Assembly (NCBI RefSeq): GCF_017742835.1
Contig: NZ_CP072392.1
Coordinates: 1,906,385-1,970,384, forward strand
Direction of reading: 5' to 3'
DNA from: Aquabacter sp. L1I39
GTDB lineage: Bacteria > Pseudomonadota > Alphaproteobacteria > Rhizobiales > Xanthobacteraceae
DNA: 64,000 bases
The notes beneath the pieces are model-generated. The model was not told where the DNA came from, made no database searches, and was given only the letters and a program-made list of their open reading frames with translations. Of the stretch, positions 1 through 4,758 are shown piece by piece (position 1 is the first letter of the stretch; every line of letters begins with the position of its first letter). The position numbers were made by a program, and so were the translations under genes.

Positions 1-642
1 CGGCATCTCCGCGCGCAGGTCCACGAAATCTCCCGCCACCCGGGGCGTGCCGGCCCACACGAAGGCGCCCTCTTTGTCCGTGCGCACGGGGGCGAAGAAG
101 GAGATGCAGGGCGGCACGTCGCGCTTTTCCAGGCCCAGCTTGAGGGCGGCGAGGGTGAAGTTGTCCCGCGTGTTGCGCAGGGTCTCTTGGCCATAGCGCT
201 TGCGGTTGGAGGCCGGCGTCGAGCCGCCCATCAGCGCGTCATGGGCGCATGTGGTGTCCTCGGTGAGGGAGAACATCACCCGCCCCATGTCCGAGAACAA
301 GACGCGCCCTTTGCCGAGCGCGGCGGTCCACTGGACCTTGATGGTGTCGGCATAGTTCAGCCGCTCGGACGTGTCGGCGGCGTTCCAGGCGATCATGGAG
401 ACGCAGCTCTCCCCTTCCAGGAGGGCAATGCGCAAGGTCTCGCCGGCTTTCAGCTCCGCCGTCCAATACCAGCCGCCGGGAATGGTCTCCCGCTTCAGAT
501 CGCCCGCCGGCAGCAGGGCGGTGCCCCGCTCCGTGGGCGGGGGCAGGACCAGCGGGGCCTTGCCCTGGCCGGCGGCTTTCAGCGCCTCGTAATTGCGCCG
601 GTTCTGTTCGATCCGGGCCAGGCTGTCTTCGCGCGCGGTCAT
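1..642 (-). CDS. DUF1989 protein, carboxyguanidine deiminase subunit type (urea carboxylase-associated protein), partial
   Basis: The 3' end is beyond position 1; 214 residues are visible from an ATG at 642 with an upstream GGAGAG. The protein resembles the DUF1989 family long called urea carboxylase-associated protein. Established work reassigned members of such operons to carboxyguanidine deiminase, which acts after guanidine carboxylase and feeds allophanate hydrolase. Visible stretches typical of the family include ESCVSMIAWNAADTSERLNY, which carries a Cys, and a region ending in CISFFAPV. It is the fourth gene of a leftward operon after ABC transporter genes and 11 bp from the ATPase gene. 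The guanidine-I riboswitch upstream supports guanidine rather than urea. Which of the two deiminase subunits it is cannot be decided from the fragment. Confidence 0.8.
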   Translation of the reverse strand, partial: MTAREDSLARIEQNRRNYEALKAAGQGKAPLVLPPPTERGTALLPAGDLKRETIPGGWYWTAELKAGETLRIALLEGESCVSMIAWNAADTSERLNYADTIKVQWTAALGKGRVLFSDMGRVMFSLTEDTTCAHDALMGGSTPASNRKRYGQETLRNTRDNFTLAALKLGLEKRDVPPCISFFAPVRTDKEGAFVWAGTPRVAGDFVDLRAEMP

Positions 643-653
643 GTCGTCTCTCC

Positions 654-1469
654 TCAGACCGTCATGAGCGCCGGGTCGTCCCGGCCGGGGGTGAGAAGGG
701 CGGCCGGGTCGTCCCGGTGCCCGTGGGGGGAGGTTTGGCCGGCAATGCGGCGGGGCCAGACCTCGATGTCATGGGCGACGGTGGCGCCATAGCGGCCCGC
801 TTCCTCGGGCCGGCGGCGCTTGCGCTCGAAGGCGATCACGCGCGTGGCCAGCGTGAAGGCCTCCTTCAGATCGTGGGTCACCATGACCACGCTCATCTCG
901 CAGGAGTGCCATAGGCGCAGCATGAGGCAGTGAATGTCGGCGCGGATGCCGGGGTCCAGGGCGCCGAAGGGCTCGTCCAGGAGCAGGATCTTCGGCTTGC
1001 GCATGATGGCCTGGGCGAGTGCCAGGCGCTGCTGCATGCCGCCCGAAAGGGCCGAGGGATATTTGTCCTCCGCGCCGGCAAGCCCCACCTCGGCGATCAG
1101 CGCCCGGGCCTCCTCCTGCGCCTGCCGCCGGGCGGCGCCGAACAGGCGGCCGGTAAAGGGGGCGGCGGGCAGTTCGGCTGCCAGCAGCACATTGCCTAGC
1201 ACGGTCAGATGGGGGAACACCGAATAGCGCTGGAACACCACGCCCCGGTCCGCGCCCGGCTCGCGGGCGATGGGCTTGCCGTCGATGAGAATGGTGCCGC
1301 GCGTGGCGGTCTCCTCCGACAGGAGGATGCGCAGAAAGGTGGTCTTGCCGCAGCCGGAGGGGCCGACCAAAGCGATGAAGGAGCGGGGCGCGAAATCGAG
1401 GCTGATATTCTCCAGCACGATCTGCTCGCCATATTCCTTCCAGAGATGCTCGACGCGGATGGCGGTCAT
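654..1469 (-). CDS. ABC transporter ATP-binding protein, guanidine/urea-carboxylase operon
   Basis: 271-residue ATPase of the nitrate/sulfonate/taurine type. Walker A is GPSGCGKTT near residue 36, the signature is LSGGMQQRLALAQ, and Walker B is ILLLDEP followed by FGALDPGIR and the switch His in VTHDL. A C-terminal tail of about 40 residues after the core is Arg/Pro-rich and poorly conserved. Its start codon overlaps the permease stop by 4 bp (ATGA), which implies translational coupling. The unit should energise uptake of the substrate of the adjacent DUF1989 and carboxylase pathway, which the riboswitch suggests is guanidine. Family assignment is firm; the substrate is inference. Confidence 0.9.
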   Translation of the reverse strand: MTAIRVEHLWKEYGEQIVLENISLDFAPRSFIALVGPSGCGKTTFLRILLSEETATRGTILIDGKPIAREPGADRGVVFQRYSVFPHLTVLGNVLLAAELPAAPFTGRLFGAARRQAQEEARALIAEVGLAGAEDKYPSALSGGMQQRLALAQAIMRKPKILLLDEPFGALDPGIRADIHCLMLRLWHSCEMSVVMVTHDLKEAFTLATRVIAFERKRRRPEEAGRYGATVAHDIEVWPRRIAGQTSPHGHRDDPAALLTPGRDDPALMTV

Positions 1470-2278
1470 TTCGCAGCTCCGAACCAGGGGAAGAGGCCGT
1501 CGCGCAGCCGCGCGAGGGCATAGTCCATGGCCACCGACAGGAGCGTGATCCAGGCGACATAGGGCAGGATCACGTCCATGGCCAGATACCGGCGCACCAG
1601 GAAGATGCGGTAGCCAAGGCCTGAATCCGCCGCGATGGCCTCGGCGGCGATGAGGAACAGGAAGGCCGGCCCCAGCGACAGGCGCAGCGCGTCGATGAGG
1701 CGGGGCAGGATCTGCGGCAGCACCATGCGCAAGGCGATCTGCCAGGTGGAGGCGCCCAGCGTCTGGGCCTTGATGAGCTGCTCGCGCGGCAGTTCCAGCA
1801 CCCGCATGGCAAGGTCGCGGATGAGGAAGGGGGTGACGCCGATGGTGATCAGCGCCACCTTGGAGGCCTCCCCCAGGCCCATGACGATGAACAGGATGGG
1901 CAGGAGCGCCAGCGGCGGCACCATGGAGACCATGCCGACGAACGGCGCGAGCAGCGCCCGCACCGCCGGCAGGAGCCCCACCGCCATGCCCACCACGAGG
2001 GCGATGGCGGTGGAGAGGGCGAGCGCCTCCCCGAGCCGGGAGAGGCTGGCCAGCGTATCGGACAGGAGCAGATAGTCCCCGGTGCGGGCATCGGCCACGA
2101 AGGCCACCCGCATCACGGCATCCCCGAGCGTGCCGAGGCTCGGCAGCAGCTTGTCGGCGGGGTTTTCCGCCAGACGCGCCGCCGAGCCCAGCACATAGGC
2201 CAGCACCACCAGCACGAAGGGCAAGGCCGCCAGGATGACGCGCGTTCCGGCATCTGGCTTGCGGTTGATGAGGCGCAT
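1466..2278 (-). CDS. ABC transporter permease, guanidine/urea-carboxylase operon
   Basis: 270-residue inner-membrane protein of the SsuC/TauC type with about six hydrophobic segments, the first at residues 14-32. The conserved cytoplasmic EAA-type loop lies around GASTWQIALRMVLPQILP, where it contacts the ATPase. The ATG at 2278 has GGAG eight bases upstream. The gene lies 27 bp after the solute-binding-protein gene and overlaps the ATPase gene, so all three are one transcript. The proposed substrate, guanidinium, comes from operon context only. Confidence 0.9.
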   Translation of the reverse strand: MRLINRKPDAGTRVILAALPFVLVVLAYVLGSAARLAENPADKLLPSLGTLGDAVMRVAFVADARTGDYLLLSDTLASLSRLGEALALSTAIALVVGMAVGLLPAVRALLAPFVGMVSMVPPLALLPILFIVMGLGEASKVALITIGVTPFLIRDLAMRVLELPREQLIKAQTLGASTWQIALRMVLPQILPRLIDALRLSLGPAFLFLIAAEAIAADSGLGYRIFLVRRYLAMDVILPYVAWITLLSVAMDYALARLRDGLFPWFGAAK

Positions 2279-2305: not shown

Positions 2306-3436
2306 TCAGAGCTTGCCGTCGGCGGCGGCGGCCATGTAGGTGTCGGTGAAGCGGAACTTCACGTTCTTCGCATCGCCCAGCACCTTGCCGTCCGCCAGCT
2401 CGATGCCCACCGCGTCCGCCGACTTGGCATTGTCGCCGAGCAGCTTCTTGGCGAACAGGAACTTGCGCACCCGGTCCATGGTGGTGCCCACATCGCCCGA
2501 CTTCACGAAGGCCACCGCCTCGGGCGCCTTGGCGAACAGCTTGGTGGCGGCAAGCTGGGCATCGAAGCCGGCCAGATCCGTGCCGGAGGCCTTGCCCATG
2601 GCGGTGCGGGCGGCGATGCCCTTCTCGCCGGGGTCGGTCATGATGGCCATGGTCTCGTACCAGATGCCGGCCAGCGCCTTGCCGAAATCGGGATTGTCCT
2701 TGAGCACGGCGGTGTTGGCGACCATCAGGTCCATGATCTCGCCGGGGATCTTGGAGCTGTCGAAGACGCTGTGGGCGCTCTTTTCGGTCAGGATCTCGGA
2801 GACCAGCGGGTTCCAGGTAACCACGGAGGTGACGGCCTTGGTCTTGTAGGCGGCCACCATGTCGGCGTCGGAGGTGTTGACCACCTTCACGTCGCGCTCG
2901 GACAGGTTGATGCTCTCCAGCGCCCGGGCCAGCAGATAGTGGGAGACTGAGAACTCCACCAGATTGACCTTCTGGCCCTTGATCTCGGAGAGCTTGGTCT
3001 TGTTCTTCAGGATCACGGCGTCATTGCCGTTGGAGAAGTCGCCGACGATGACGGCGGTGGTGTCGACTCCGCCGGCGGCCGGCACGGAGAGGGCATCCAT
3101 ATTGGTCACGGTCAGCGCGTCGAAGGCGCCGGCGGTGTATTGGTTGATGCTCTCCACATAGTCGTTGAACTGGGTGACCTCGATGTTGAGGCCATACTTG
3201 TCCGCCCATTTCTTGACGATGCCCGTATCGGCGGCATAGCCCCAGGGCATCCAGCCCACATAGATGGACCAGGCCACCTTGAAGTCCTTCTTCGGGGCGG
3301 CGAGCGCCGGGGATGCGCCGGCAATGAGGGCAGCGGCGCCCGCAGCCAGTGCGAGCTTGGACAGTCCACGCCGAGATACGGCGAGGCTCGTCAGGCCGAA
3401 TTTGGAAAGGCTGAACACGGGAAGGCGTGCGCGCAT
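2306..3436 (-). CDS. ABC transporter periplasmic binding protein, probable guanidine binding
   Basis: 376 residues. An Arg-rich N-terminus is followed by a hydrophobic stretch and an AxA cleavage region (GASPALAAP near residue 47), so it is exported; the long n-region could suit Tat or Sec. The mature part, starting KKDFKVAWSIYVGWMPWGY, matches the NMT1/taurine-type binding proteins specifically linked to urea carboxylase operons. The ATG at 3436 has GAAGGGGAA upstream. It is the first gene behind the guanidine-I riboswitch and sigma-54 promoter, which argues that it captures guanidine as a nitrogen source. The urea-carboxylase-associated name in databases describes its neighbours, not a measured ligand. 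Confidence 0.88.
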   Translation of the reverse strand: MRARLPVFSLSKFGLTSLAVSRRGLSKLALAAGAAALIAGASPALAAPKKDFKVAWSIYVGWMPWGYAADTGIVKKWADKYGLNIEVTQFNDYVESINQYTAGAFDALTVTNMDALSVPAAGGVDTTAVIVGDFSNGNDAVILKNKTKLSEIKGQKVNLVEFSVSHYLLARALESINLSERDVKVVNTSDADMVAAYKTKAVTSVVTWNPLVSEILTEKSAHSVFDSSKIPGEIMDLMVANTAVLKDNPDFGKALAGIWYETMAIMTDPGEKGIAARTAMGKASGTDLAGFDAQLAATKLFAKAPEAVAFVKSGDVGTTMDRVRKFLFAKKLLGDNAKSADAVGIELADGKVLGDAKNVKFRFTDTYMAAAADGKL

Positions 3437-3457
3437 AGATATTCCCCTTCGTTGTCA

Positions 3458-3500
3458 CAAAACGATGAGGAATTGGCGAGACTCCAGTGCCGCCAATTCC
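3458..3500 (-). terminator. riboswitch attenuator hairpin
   Basis: On the minus strand the 10-bp arms GGAATTGGCG (3500-3491) and CGCCAATTCC (3478-3469) enclose a 12-base loop and are followed by TCATCGTTTTGTG. This is an intrinsic-terminator shape placed between the guanidine aptamer and the binding-protein start codon at 3436, as expected for the expression platform of an ON-type riboswitch. The arms also contain GCCAA/TTGGC sequence able to pair with the bases just after the aptamer, but I did not fold the RNA. Confidence 0.75.
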
Positions 3501-3510
3501 TTGGCCACCG

Positions 3511-3612
3511 AGGTCTCCCGGGCTTTTATCCCGCCGTGCGCCCGGCCGGATGTCTCCCGGACCGGCGGCAGCTCTCGGACCAGCGCACCAAAGGTGCCGG
3601 AACCCTAGCCAC
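3511..3612 (-). ncRNA. guanidine-I (ykkC) riboswitch aptamer
   Basis: The minus strand carries the three hallmark blocks of the ykkC/guanidine-I class in the right order: CTAGGGTTCCGG (3608-3597), CTGGTCCGAGAG (3583-3572) and GGGATAAAAGCCCGGGAGA (3532-3514). Variable stems lie between them. In this class guanidine binding stabilises the aptamer and prevents termination. It sits about 75 bp upstream of the binding-protein gene and directly before an attenuator hairpin. The motif match is strong enough to name the class and to reinterpret the transporter operon downstream as a guanidine operon. Confidence 0.93.
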
Positions 3613-3630
3613 CAACTCTGAACTGATCAA

Positions 3631-3646
3631 AGCAAGGCGCGTGCCA
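3631..3646 (-). promoter_or_regulatory. sigma-54 (RpoN) -24/-12 promoter
   Basis: The minus strand reads TGGCACGCGCCTTGCT, with GG and GC elements separated by exactly ten bases and TGGCACG-N4-TTGC matching the RpoN consensus. The predicted transcript start near 3620 falls about ten bases before the guanidine aptamer. A TGCC-N9-GGCA inverted motif at 3719-3735, about 100 bp upstream of that start, is at enhancer distance and could be an NtrC site; that part is weak. The arrangement suggests nitrogen-limitation control stacked on guanidine sensing. Confidence 0.75.
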
Positions 3647-3774
3647 GGAAAATATCCTTCTGAATCAAGGGTCGGCTTTGGGTTGGGCCACGCCGCATGG
3701 CCGCGAAATCAATCAATCTGCCGACAAAGTGGGCAGAATCGCGCATATGGAGACATCTTGCATGCAGCGCGCGG

Positions 3775-4758
3775 TCACCCCACTGCGTCGAACCCCGCCT
3801 GCAGGGCGAGGGGATCGCGCACCTCGTTCGCCAGCAGCAGCTGAAGCAGCACGCGGGCCTTGGCCGGATTGAGGAAATGGGCCGCGACGAAGCCATGGGC
3901 ATCGTCGCTGACCTCGATGTTGCGCAGCACCGGCCCGCTGCCCACCCGGCTGGAGCGCACCACCGGAATGCCCGCCTGCACGGCGCGGCTCAGGGCTGCG
4001 ATGGCCGCGCCCGACGCATTGCCGTCGCCCACCCCCGCCAGGACCAGCCCGCGGGCGCCGCCCGCCACGGCGGCCTCGATCTCCAGTCCGTCCATGCCGG
4101 CATGGGCATAGAGAATGGAGACGCGCGGAAGGGGCGGCGCCGCCGGCAAGGGCAGATGCGGTGCCGGCGGCACCGGCGGGCGGAAGAAATGGATGCCGTT
4201 GGGCGTCACATGGCCAAGGGGGCCGAAATTGGGGGAGACGAAGGTCTGCACGGCGGTGGTGCTGGTCTTGGTCACGTCGGCCGCGCCGTGGATGGTGTCG
4301 TTGAGCACCACCAGCACGCCGCGCCCCGCCGCCCGCGCATCGCTCGCCAGCTGGATGGCCGCGAACAGGTTCATGGGCCCGTCGGCGCTGATGGCGGTGG
4401 AGGGGCGCATGGCGCCCACCACCACCAGCGGCTTCACCAGCGGCAGGACCATATGGAGGAACAAAGCGGTCTCCTCCAGCGTGTCCGTGCCATGGGTCAC
4501 CACGATGCCGTCCACATCCGCATCCGCCTGCAGCGCCGCGATGCGCCGCGCCAGGGCGAACCAGACCTCGTCATTCATGTCCTGGCTGCCGATGGCCGCC
4601 ACCTGTTGGGCGCTGATCCGGGCAAGGCCCGCCACCTGCGGCACGGCGGCCAGCAGCTGCTCCGGCGTGACCTGACCCGCATTGTAGCCGCCCTCGGAGC
4701 GGGTGTCGGCGGTTCCGGCAATGGTGCCGCCGGTGGCGAGTATGACAATATGGGCCAA
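3775..4758 (-). CDS. L-asparaginase / glutaminase family protein
   Basis: 327 residues from a TTG at 4758, chosen because GGAG lies eight bases upstream and the conserved N-terminus begins at once (AHIVILATGGTIAG). It hydrolyses L-asparagine to aspartate and ammonia. The first catalytic Thr is Thr12 in ATGGTIAG; the second triad is in VVTHGTDT (Thr91-Asp92), with the Lys in DVTKTSTTA. Length suits the family. The in-frame codons upstream spell a hydrophobic run, LLLLSLVPPAGAAS, that looks like a signal-peptide core, so a longer periplasmic form from another alternative start is possible. It lies upstream of the guanidine operon on the same strand, another ammonia-releasing function. Confidence 0.88.
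   Translation of the reverse strand: MAHIVILATGGTIAGTADTRSEGGYNAGQVTPEQLLAAVPQVAGLARISAQQVAAIGSQDMNDEVWFALARRIAALQADADVDGIVVTHGTDTLEETALFLHMVLPLVKPLVVVGAMRPSTAISADGPMNLFAAIQLASDARAAGRGVLVVLNDTIHGAADVTKTSTTAVQTFVSPNFGPLGHVTPNGIHFFRPPVPPAPHLPLPAAPPLPRVSILYAHAGMDGLEIEAAVAGGARGLVLAGVGDGNASGAAIAALSRAVQAGIPVVRSSRVGSGPVLRNIEVSDDAHGFVAAHFLNPAKARVLLQLLLANEVRDPLALQAGFDAVG

Follow-up and report, generated by a model that had tools for sequence, protein, structure and literature searches.

The operon analysed here, which lies on the minus strand of a 64,000-nucleotide stretch of the Aquabacter sp. L1I39 genome (hereafter the window), is in our judgement fairly probably a guanidine-assimilation operon with serial gates, namely a promoter dependent on NtrC and sigma-54, a guanidine-I riboswitch acting on translation and a guanidine-II riboswitch. 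Taken one at a time, the motifs of the window were close to chance expectation, and the case is built on comparison between genomes.

Guanidine-I aptamer and genes of the operon

A covariance-model search of the genome (5,388,224 bases) with Rfam RF00442 gave a single guanidine-I match, at 3619-3513 (-), with 83 bits and an E value of 2.7e-13. The original prediction had located the conserved aptamer blocks at 3608-3514 and had named such a search with the Rfam guanidine-I model as its check; the coordinates were correct and the score is above the gathering score (83 versus 63). Genes for guanidine metabolism and transport adjoin the element (TIGR03427, TIGR03424/5 and TIGR02712 were all matched), which, from its covariance score and gene context, is a predicted guanidine sensor. 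The genes of the operon are as follows:

2306-3436, minus strand: ABC substrate-binding protein, TIGR03427 (urea-carboxylase-associated), 546 bits for a cut-off of 334
1466-2278, minus strand: ABC permease, PF00528
654-1469, minus strand: ABC ATPase, whose 3′ end encodes RDDPA...RDDPA across guanidine-II
1-642, minus strand, running out of the window: UAAP1, DUF1989 protein (L003:11718-12527)
L003:11045-11707: UAAP2 (DUF1989)
L003:7496-11041: urea/guanidine carboxylase TIGR02712, full-length, 1800 bits for a cut-off of 1304
L003:7074-7499: allophanate hydrolase, C-terminal domain only, matching 430-562 of 563

The original prediction of a transporter operon was thus right as to the transporter and incomplete, a carboxylase, two UAAP proteins and a guanidine-II element being also present. 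As this gene content is similar to that of the guanidine carboxylase pathway in the accessible part of PMC12186494, the most likely function of the operon is to import guanidine and degrade it. An asparaginase-like gene (identity by eye) lies directly upstream on the same strand, at about 4757-3775 (-). In two other loci (L158 and L163) the box described below and guanidine-I precede a gene whose product has a TonB-dependent receptor plug domain, possibly an outer-membrane route for guanidine.

Predicted sigma-54 promoter ahead of the aptamer

The features of the control region are the following:

3718-3736, minus strand: CTGCCCACTTTGTCGGCAG, palindrome, predicted upstream activator (NtrC) site, beginning 90 bases before TGGCAC
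3632-3646, minus strand: TGGCACGCGCCTTGC, predicted sigma-54 (-24/-12) promoter, from motif and conservation
3619-3621, minus strand: predicted transcription start, from sigma-54 geometry
3513-3619, minus strand: guanidine-I riboswitch aptamer, Rfam 83 bits

Read along the minus strand, the order is palindrome (3736-3718), sigma-54 box, aptamer, hairpin (3500-3469), Shine-Dalgarno (SD) sequence (3449-3441) and ATG (3436). The box has the form TGGCAC-N5-TTGC and agrees with the consensus at 10 of 10 positions, with GG and GC at -24 and -12 and a 10-base spacing. This exact pattern was present at one place in the window, 3646-3632 (-), and at 17 places in the genome, whereas the reversed pattern, used as a control, occurred 3 times. 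When one mismatch was tolerated, 5 matches were counted in the window where 6 were expected, and the box by itself was dropped as evidence because this is near chance. What raises it above chance is that it is conserved and that it keeps an almost constant distance to the aptamer.

Guanidine-I loci for this comparison were picked by the covariance model, ignoring promoters, and comprised 50 family loci (of 52 matches) and 28 class loci. A box was scored if it had the invariant GG/GC and at least 8 of the 10 consensus positions within 80 nt before CTAGGG. It was found just upstream of guanidine-I in 29/50 family loci and 21/28 class loci, as against 14/650 (2.2%) and 5/364 (1.4%), respectively, of background windows farther upstream, and 2/50 and 0/28 on the opposite strand. 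The family set includes four loci below the Rfam cut-off (L197-L200), all without the box; the class set includes L178 (62.1 bits), with the box, and L180, without it. The second anchor in L155 and the anchorless L179 of the class set were left out of the counts, and the weak matches G135:C6 and G102:C5, G279 and the second matches of G443 and G523 lay outside the fetched loci.

A pattern scan of public genomes, selective for the box, returned at least 119 stretches with the box, a gap of 6-34 nt and CTAGGGTTCC. Among the matches listed were Mesorhizobium, Rhizobium, Bradyrhizobium, Azospirillum, Devosia and Thalassospira (Alphaproteobacteria), and also Acinetobacter, Solimonas and Zoogloea. 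The distance from the -12 GC to CTAGGG, allowed to range from 6 to 34 nt, was 20-26 nt in 108 of 120 among the matches listed. In a draw across the phylum, 58 matches were listed and 28 of them read as new loci, under a slightly looser rule that did not require the last C of the box. The box was present at 21-24 nt in 4/4 loci from the same order; outside the class it was present in 9/24 loci, at a longer distance (51-63 nt). These out-of-class boxes, counted from the aptamer core (L308, L311, L314, L315, L318, L320, L321, L330 and L333), form a second spacing class.

Counting 12 nt from the -12 C put the predicted start at 3620, one base ahead of the Rfam match, and the RNA would therefore begin at the 5′ edge of the aptamer (3619). 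A sigma-54 promoter and a start just before the aptamer had both been foreseen in the original prediction, and both agree with these results: the box is exact at 3646-3632 (-) and accompanies the aptamer in the family and class sets. By this comparative evidence, the sigma-54 promoter and the aptamer are real and conserved together.

Upstream palindrome and the likely activator

We counted inverted half-sites, with no prior model, in the 250 bases before the box of 142 non-redundant loci. The dyad TGCC-N9-GGCA was found in 23 of the 142 (0.5 in shuffles) and was refined to the motif TGC-N-Y-AAWWWTT-R-N-GCA; the geometry TGC-N11-GCA is that of NtrC sites. With one half of the data used for training and the other for testing, a mean of 101/142 held-out loci reached at least 10 bits; the corresponding values were 1.8 for shuffled sequences and 5.0 for the region 160-250 bases upstream. 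The positions of the motif were spaced by roughly one turn of the helix (near -58, -69, -80, -90, -101 and -112), with a phasing nR2 of 33 at 10.5 bp in the held-out data. The palindrome of the window starts at -90 and scores 14.7 bits. Taken singly, CTGCC-N9-GGCAG with up to one mismatch had one match in the window, versus 9.8 in shuffles, and the exact form had nine places in the genome, the same number as the control pattern.

The motif was also present within 400 bases upstream of 22/28 class P-II genes, versus 4% in mononucleotide shuffles (30 loci, of which two had no recognised start and one had only 150 upstream bases). In the window's own genome, glnK-amtB is preceded by the motif twice, some 104 and 92 bases ahead of a sigma-54-like TGGCACGTTCCTTGA (box by eye). 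According to the accessible part of PMC5343134, the core targets of NtrC include P-II and amtB genes, and the presence of the motif ahead of P-II genes makes NtrC the likely activator. The motif reaches 10 bits at only 2 of the 17 exact sigma-54 sites in the genome, that of the window and L227; it is therefore not a general feature of sigma-54 sites. L227 (position 820447 of the same genome) combines an exact box with a palindrome of 15.3 bits before a gene that by eye encodes a periplasmic binding protein, and is likely to be a further NtrC target.

IHF-type sites were counted with the 13-base IHF consensus in the 70 bases directly preceding the box: 26/142 loci had one with no more than one mismatch (7.1 in shuffles, 3 in a far region), and 10/142 had an exact one (0.2 in shuffles). 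An NtrC whose loop reads GAFTGA or GSFTGA was identified in the genome of the window and, of 30 examined, in 27 others. Half-sites of the E. coli NtrC type (GCAC-N7-GTGC) were tried and dropped, exact copies being present only in four loci of g28, a genus without the box.

The sigma-54 promoter could be used with another enhancer-binding protein, for example NtrX or a dedicated one. The NtrC assignment is made from the motif, the palindrome departs in some details from the NtrC site of E. coli, and the same genomes encode many other NtrC-like proteins. Against this, the motif is shared with the P-II genes and with glnK-amtB of the same genome, and a search for GAFTGA-type signatures in 119 fetched loci, mostly of 8 kb, revealed no adjacent activator gene. 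We consider such an activator improbable and retain NtrC as the likely one. As the motif reached 10 bits in only 1/9 of the boxed loci outside the class, this assignment is confined to Alphaproteobacteria.

Guanidine-I loci lacking the box

The scored box was absent from 21/50 family loci and 7/28 class loci. These included ten arginase-family-led loci of g22 (Pfam on L009 and L028, the others by eye), five g28 loci with the same substrate-binding protein, and L015, L174 and L193. L162 and L165, which were scored as box-less, have TGGCAC-N5-TTGA, the same form as is found before glnK in the genome of the window. The idea that the box occurs only in transport-led operons was partly true, since it was missing from the arginase-led g22 loci and from weak matches led by EamA genes, and was contradicted by the substrate-binding-protein-led g28 loci and by L015, L174 and L193, all without it. 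The weak RF00442 matches concerned (L180 and L197-L200) stand ahead of EamA-type transporters (Pfam on L180 and L197); we take them to be possibly other ykkC subtypes. Loss of the GAFTGA loop of NtrC in box-less lineages was ruled out, the box-less genomes that were read keeping GAFTGA or GSFTGA, G321 excepted. No NtrC match over the NCBIfam cut-off was found in G321, which is box-less, or in G427, which has the box. The palindrome scored at least 10 bits in 12/28 box-less loci, and g28 retains it, closer in.

The sizeable minority of relatives without the box would suit a scheme in which expression came mainly from a sigma-70-type promoter, or by read-through from the asparaginase-like gene, whose end lies about 130 bases upstream of the box, nitrogen control being minor. 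Yet the box and its spacing are conserved where present. No sigma-70-like site was found at 3300-4000, a result of little weight as shuffles gave just 0.1. We hold this scheme to be very improbable and keep the predicted sigma-54 promoter as the probable main source of the transcript.

Alternative helices in the leader

Three helices of the leader (minus strand) were considered:

3479-3516, minus strand: helix H1, AGACCUCGGUGGCCAA-GGAA-UUGGC..CACUGGAGUCU, in the MFE fold; it overlaps the last bases of the aptamer and excludes H2
3469-3500, minus strand: helix H2, the 10-bp hairpin; 341/371 cells paired, covariation 22:52, z -3.8
3441-3473, minus strand: helix H3, AUUCCUC of the H2 3′ arm with the SD sequence AAGGGGAAU (3449-3441); 233/272 cells paired, in the MFE fold

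The leader had originally been predicted to contain an attenuator, consisting of a 10-bp hairpin and a T-tract. The hairpin was found (arms GGAATTGGCG / CGCCAATTCC at 3500-3491 / 3478-3469 (-), 12-base loop) and is stable, with a fold z of -3.8. The T-tract needs qualification: TCATCGTTTTG is interrupted and its four-T run begins 6 bases past the stem, the tail after the stem, TCATCGTTTT, having 6 Ts in 10 bases with interruptions. A terminator scan listed nothing; it admits loops of 3-8 bases and carries no weight here because this limit excludes the 12-base loop.

We aligned 34 platform sequences, hand-picked from loci in which a hairpin and a start codon could be recognised (the start of L021 was shifted by hand). 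Six or more Ts among the 9 bases that follow the stem were found in 8/34 loci, all of the GGGATTGG arm form; the window itself has 5. The GGGATTGG-form hairpins (rhizobia, Bradyrhizobium and others) have H2 followed by 3-6 Ts, mostly at least 5, and could act in termination there.

For H1, 167/167 inner and 148/170 outer pairs were kept in the 34 loci. Column 52 pairs with column 22 in H2 and with column 106 in H3, and columns 22/52/106 read A-T-A in 20, G-C-G in 10, G-C-A in 3 and C-T-A in 1 of the 34; few covariation events are seen, as the sequences belong to a small number of clades. The complementarity between arm and SD within a locus (18.54) exceeded that in all 5000 between-locus permutations (maximum 18.47), a narrow difference that is inflated by relatedness. 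By local folding, H1 with H3 had -29.5 kcal/mol and the best structure with H2 -26.5 kcal/mol, i.e. a difference of 3 kcal/mol. The alternative pairing of the SD sequence in H3 is thus conserved in the 34 hand-picked loci, as for a translational riboswitch that sequesters the SD.

With the same promoter and aptamer, the hairpin might instead be an intrinsic terminator prevented by guanidine, H1 being the antiterminator. Guanidine-I is usually a transcriptional ON switch in the accessible parts of PMC12186494 and PMC11410670, the hairpin is stable and followed by the T-containing tail, and some relatives have UUUUU after it. This reading is rendered doubtful by a U-tract that is not conserved and by a 3′ arm whose complementarity to the SD sequence is conserved with covariation, a pairing superfluous to a terminator. 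It appears rather unlikely to us as a general account, H2 possibly serving as a terminator in the UUUUU lineages or in the window. The original attenuator therefore keeps its stable hairpin, its role being doubtful. We favour a translational ON switch, a reading in which we infer the helix promoted by the ligand.

Guanidine-II element in the ATPase gene

A second predicted sensor is found farther downstream:

671-720, minus strand: guanidine-II (mini-ykkC) aptamer, located within the coding sequence of the ATPase and ahead of the following gene, 38.9 bits for a gathering score of 32

The covariance-model search gave no other guanidine-II in the genome. Both elements scoring over their cut-off, guanidine-II was present downstream of guanidine-I, within 4 kb and on the same strand, for 30/46 family guanidine-I matches; the distance was 2.7-3.1 kb in 29 of the 30 and 207 bases in one. 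This prevalence was preferred over a count in the 20 regions read (18 with guanidine-II), which had been chosen after seeing the matches. The single short distance is that of L219 (G138), where guanidine-I (1574-1683) and guanidine-II (1890-1938) stand in tandem before DUF1989 genes.

In 8/18 relatives read, the ATPase frame spans the whole of guanidine-II and shares its stop position with that of the window; it encodes two copies of RDDPA or of a close variant, and the ATPase stop overlaps or touches the next SD sequence (TGAGGAG or similar). In the remaining relatives the frame stops in the linker (4/18), a different open frame passes through the element (4/18) or no frame does (2/18). Translating ribosomes would disturb a guanidine-II element embedded in the ATPase gene. 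By eye, CUUCUC in its linker might pair with GAGGAG of the next SD sequence, inconsistently across relatives. The guanidine-II linker of L207, L212 and L216 holds GGAGCATGA, which by eye might offer the downstream gene an additional start.

Discussion

The proposed mechanism can be followed along the transcript. When nitrogen is short, phosphorylated NtrC would bind at 3718-3736 and activate sigma-54 RNA polymerase at 3646-3632. This step joins what was observed (the motifs, their conservation and phasing, and the motif at P-II genes) to a presumed binding protein and a presumed dependence on nitrogen. Transcription from about 3620 would give an RNA headed by the guanidine-I aptamer. In the absence of guanidine, H1 would form with the 3′ end of the aptamer and the downstream AUUCCUC would hide the SD sequence in H3; with guanidine bound, the aptamer would hold its own 3′ end, H1 would be lost, H2 would take AUUCC and the SD sequence would be free. 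The helices are conserved and mutually exclusive, and the one that the ligand promotes is assigned presumptively. The guanidine-II element at the end of the ATPase gene would, judging from its position, gate UAAP1, UAAP2 and the carboxylase once more. Expression would then require both low nitrogen and guanidine, the latter being sensed twice. An AND gate of nitrogen shortage and guanidine had been suggested in the original prediction, from the response of RpoN promoters to nitrogen status and the activation of guanidine export or degradation genes by guanidine-I riboswitches; comparison supports it through the joint conservation of box and aptamer and through the NtrC-type upstream site.

The aptamer resembles the guanidine-I (ykkC) riboswitch RF00442 in sequence and structure and in its urea/guanidine-carboxylase gene context. 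It differs in that its expression platform looks translational, with SD sequestration rather than a terminator, and in that it begins at the predicted sigma-54 start. The promoter shares its box, helically phased palindrome and IHF-type sites in the 70 bases before the box with NtrC-sigma-54 promoters such as those of glnK-amtB and glnB, but its transcript opens with a ligand-sensing aptamer, i.e. an added check on the substrate.

Parts of this arrangement are in print. The accessible part of PMC5343134 predicts control of allophanate hydrolase by NtrC in Rhizobiales, and that of PMC12316311 predicts control by sigma-54 of COG3665 genes, called urea carboxylase there. Riboswitches are undiscussed in the accessible text of PMC5343134, in which neither guanidine nor ykkC occurs; that of PMC12316311 has the word riboswitch once, in a reference, and no occurrence of guanidin. 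Joint guanidine-I/guanidine-II operons are known, those of Raoultella, Erwinia and Klebsiella in the accessible part of PMC12186494 having, as here, importer genes under guanidine-I and enzymes downstream under guanidine-II. The present operon differs by a guanidine-II element within the ATPase frame and by a sigma-54/NtrC-type promoter, NtrC going unmentioned in that part of the text. No description of sigma-54 or NtrC coupled to a guanidine riboswitch was found in the literature searched, which was that open without subscription. The link to sigma-54 and NtrC had thus been predicted in part, and what appears to be new, within that literature, is its coupling to the riboswitch.

We put forward, tentatively and as a possibility, that this is a general alphaproteobacterial design, in which NtrC-sigma-54 control, a transcript-leading translational guanidine-I and a protein-coding guanidine-II are united in one operon and translation of the ATPase gene remodels the second aptamer. 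If true, such remodelling would tie synthesis of the enzymes to that of the transporter.

Guanidine was until recently a riboswitch ligand without clear physiology. The findings would tie it to nitrogen-starvation control across many Alphaproteobacteria, and they describe a testable two-input switch for which the start site, the activator site and the RNA helices are all predicted. They further predict that many guanidine-I switches of the class act on translation rather than termination.
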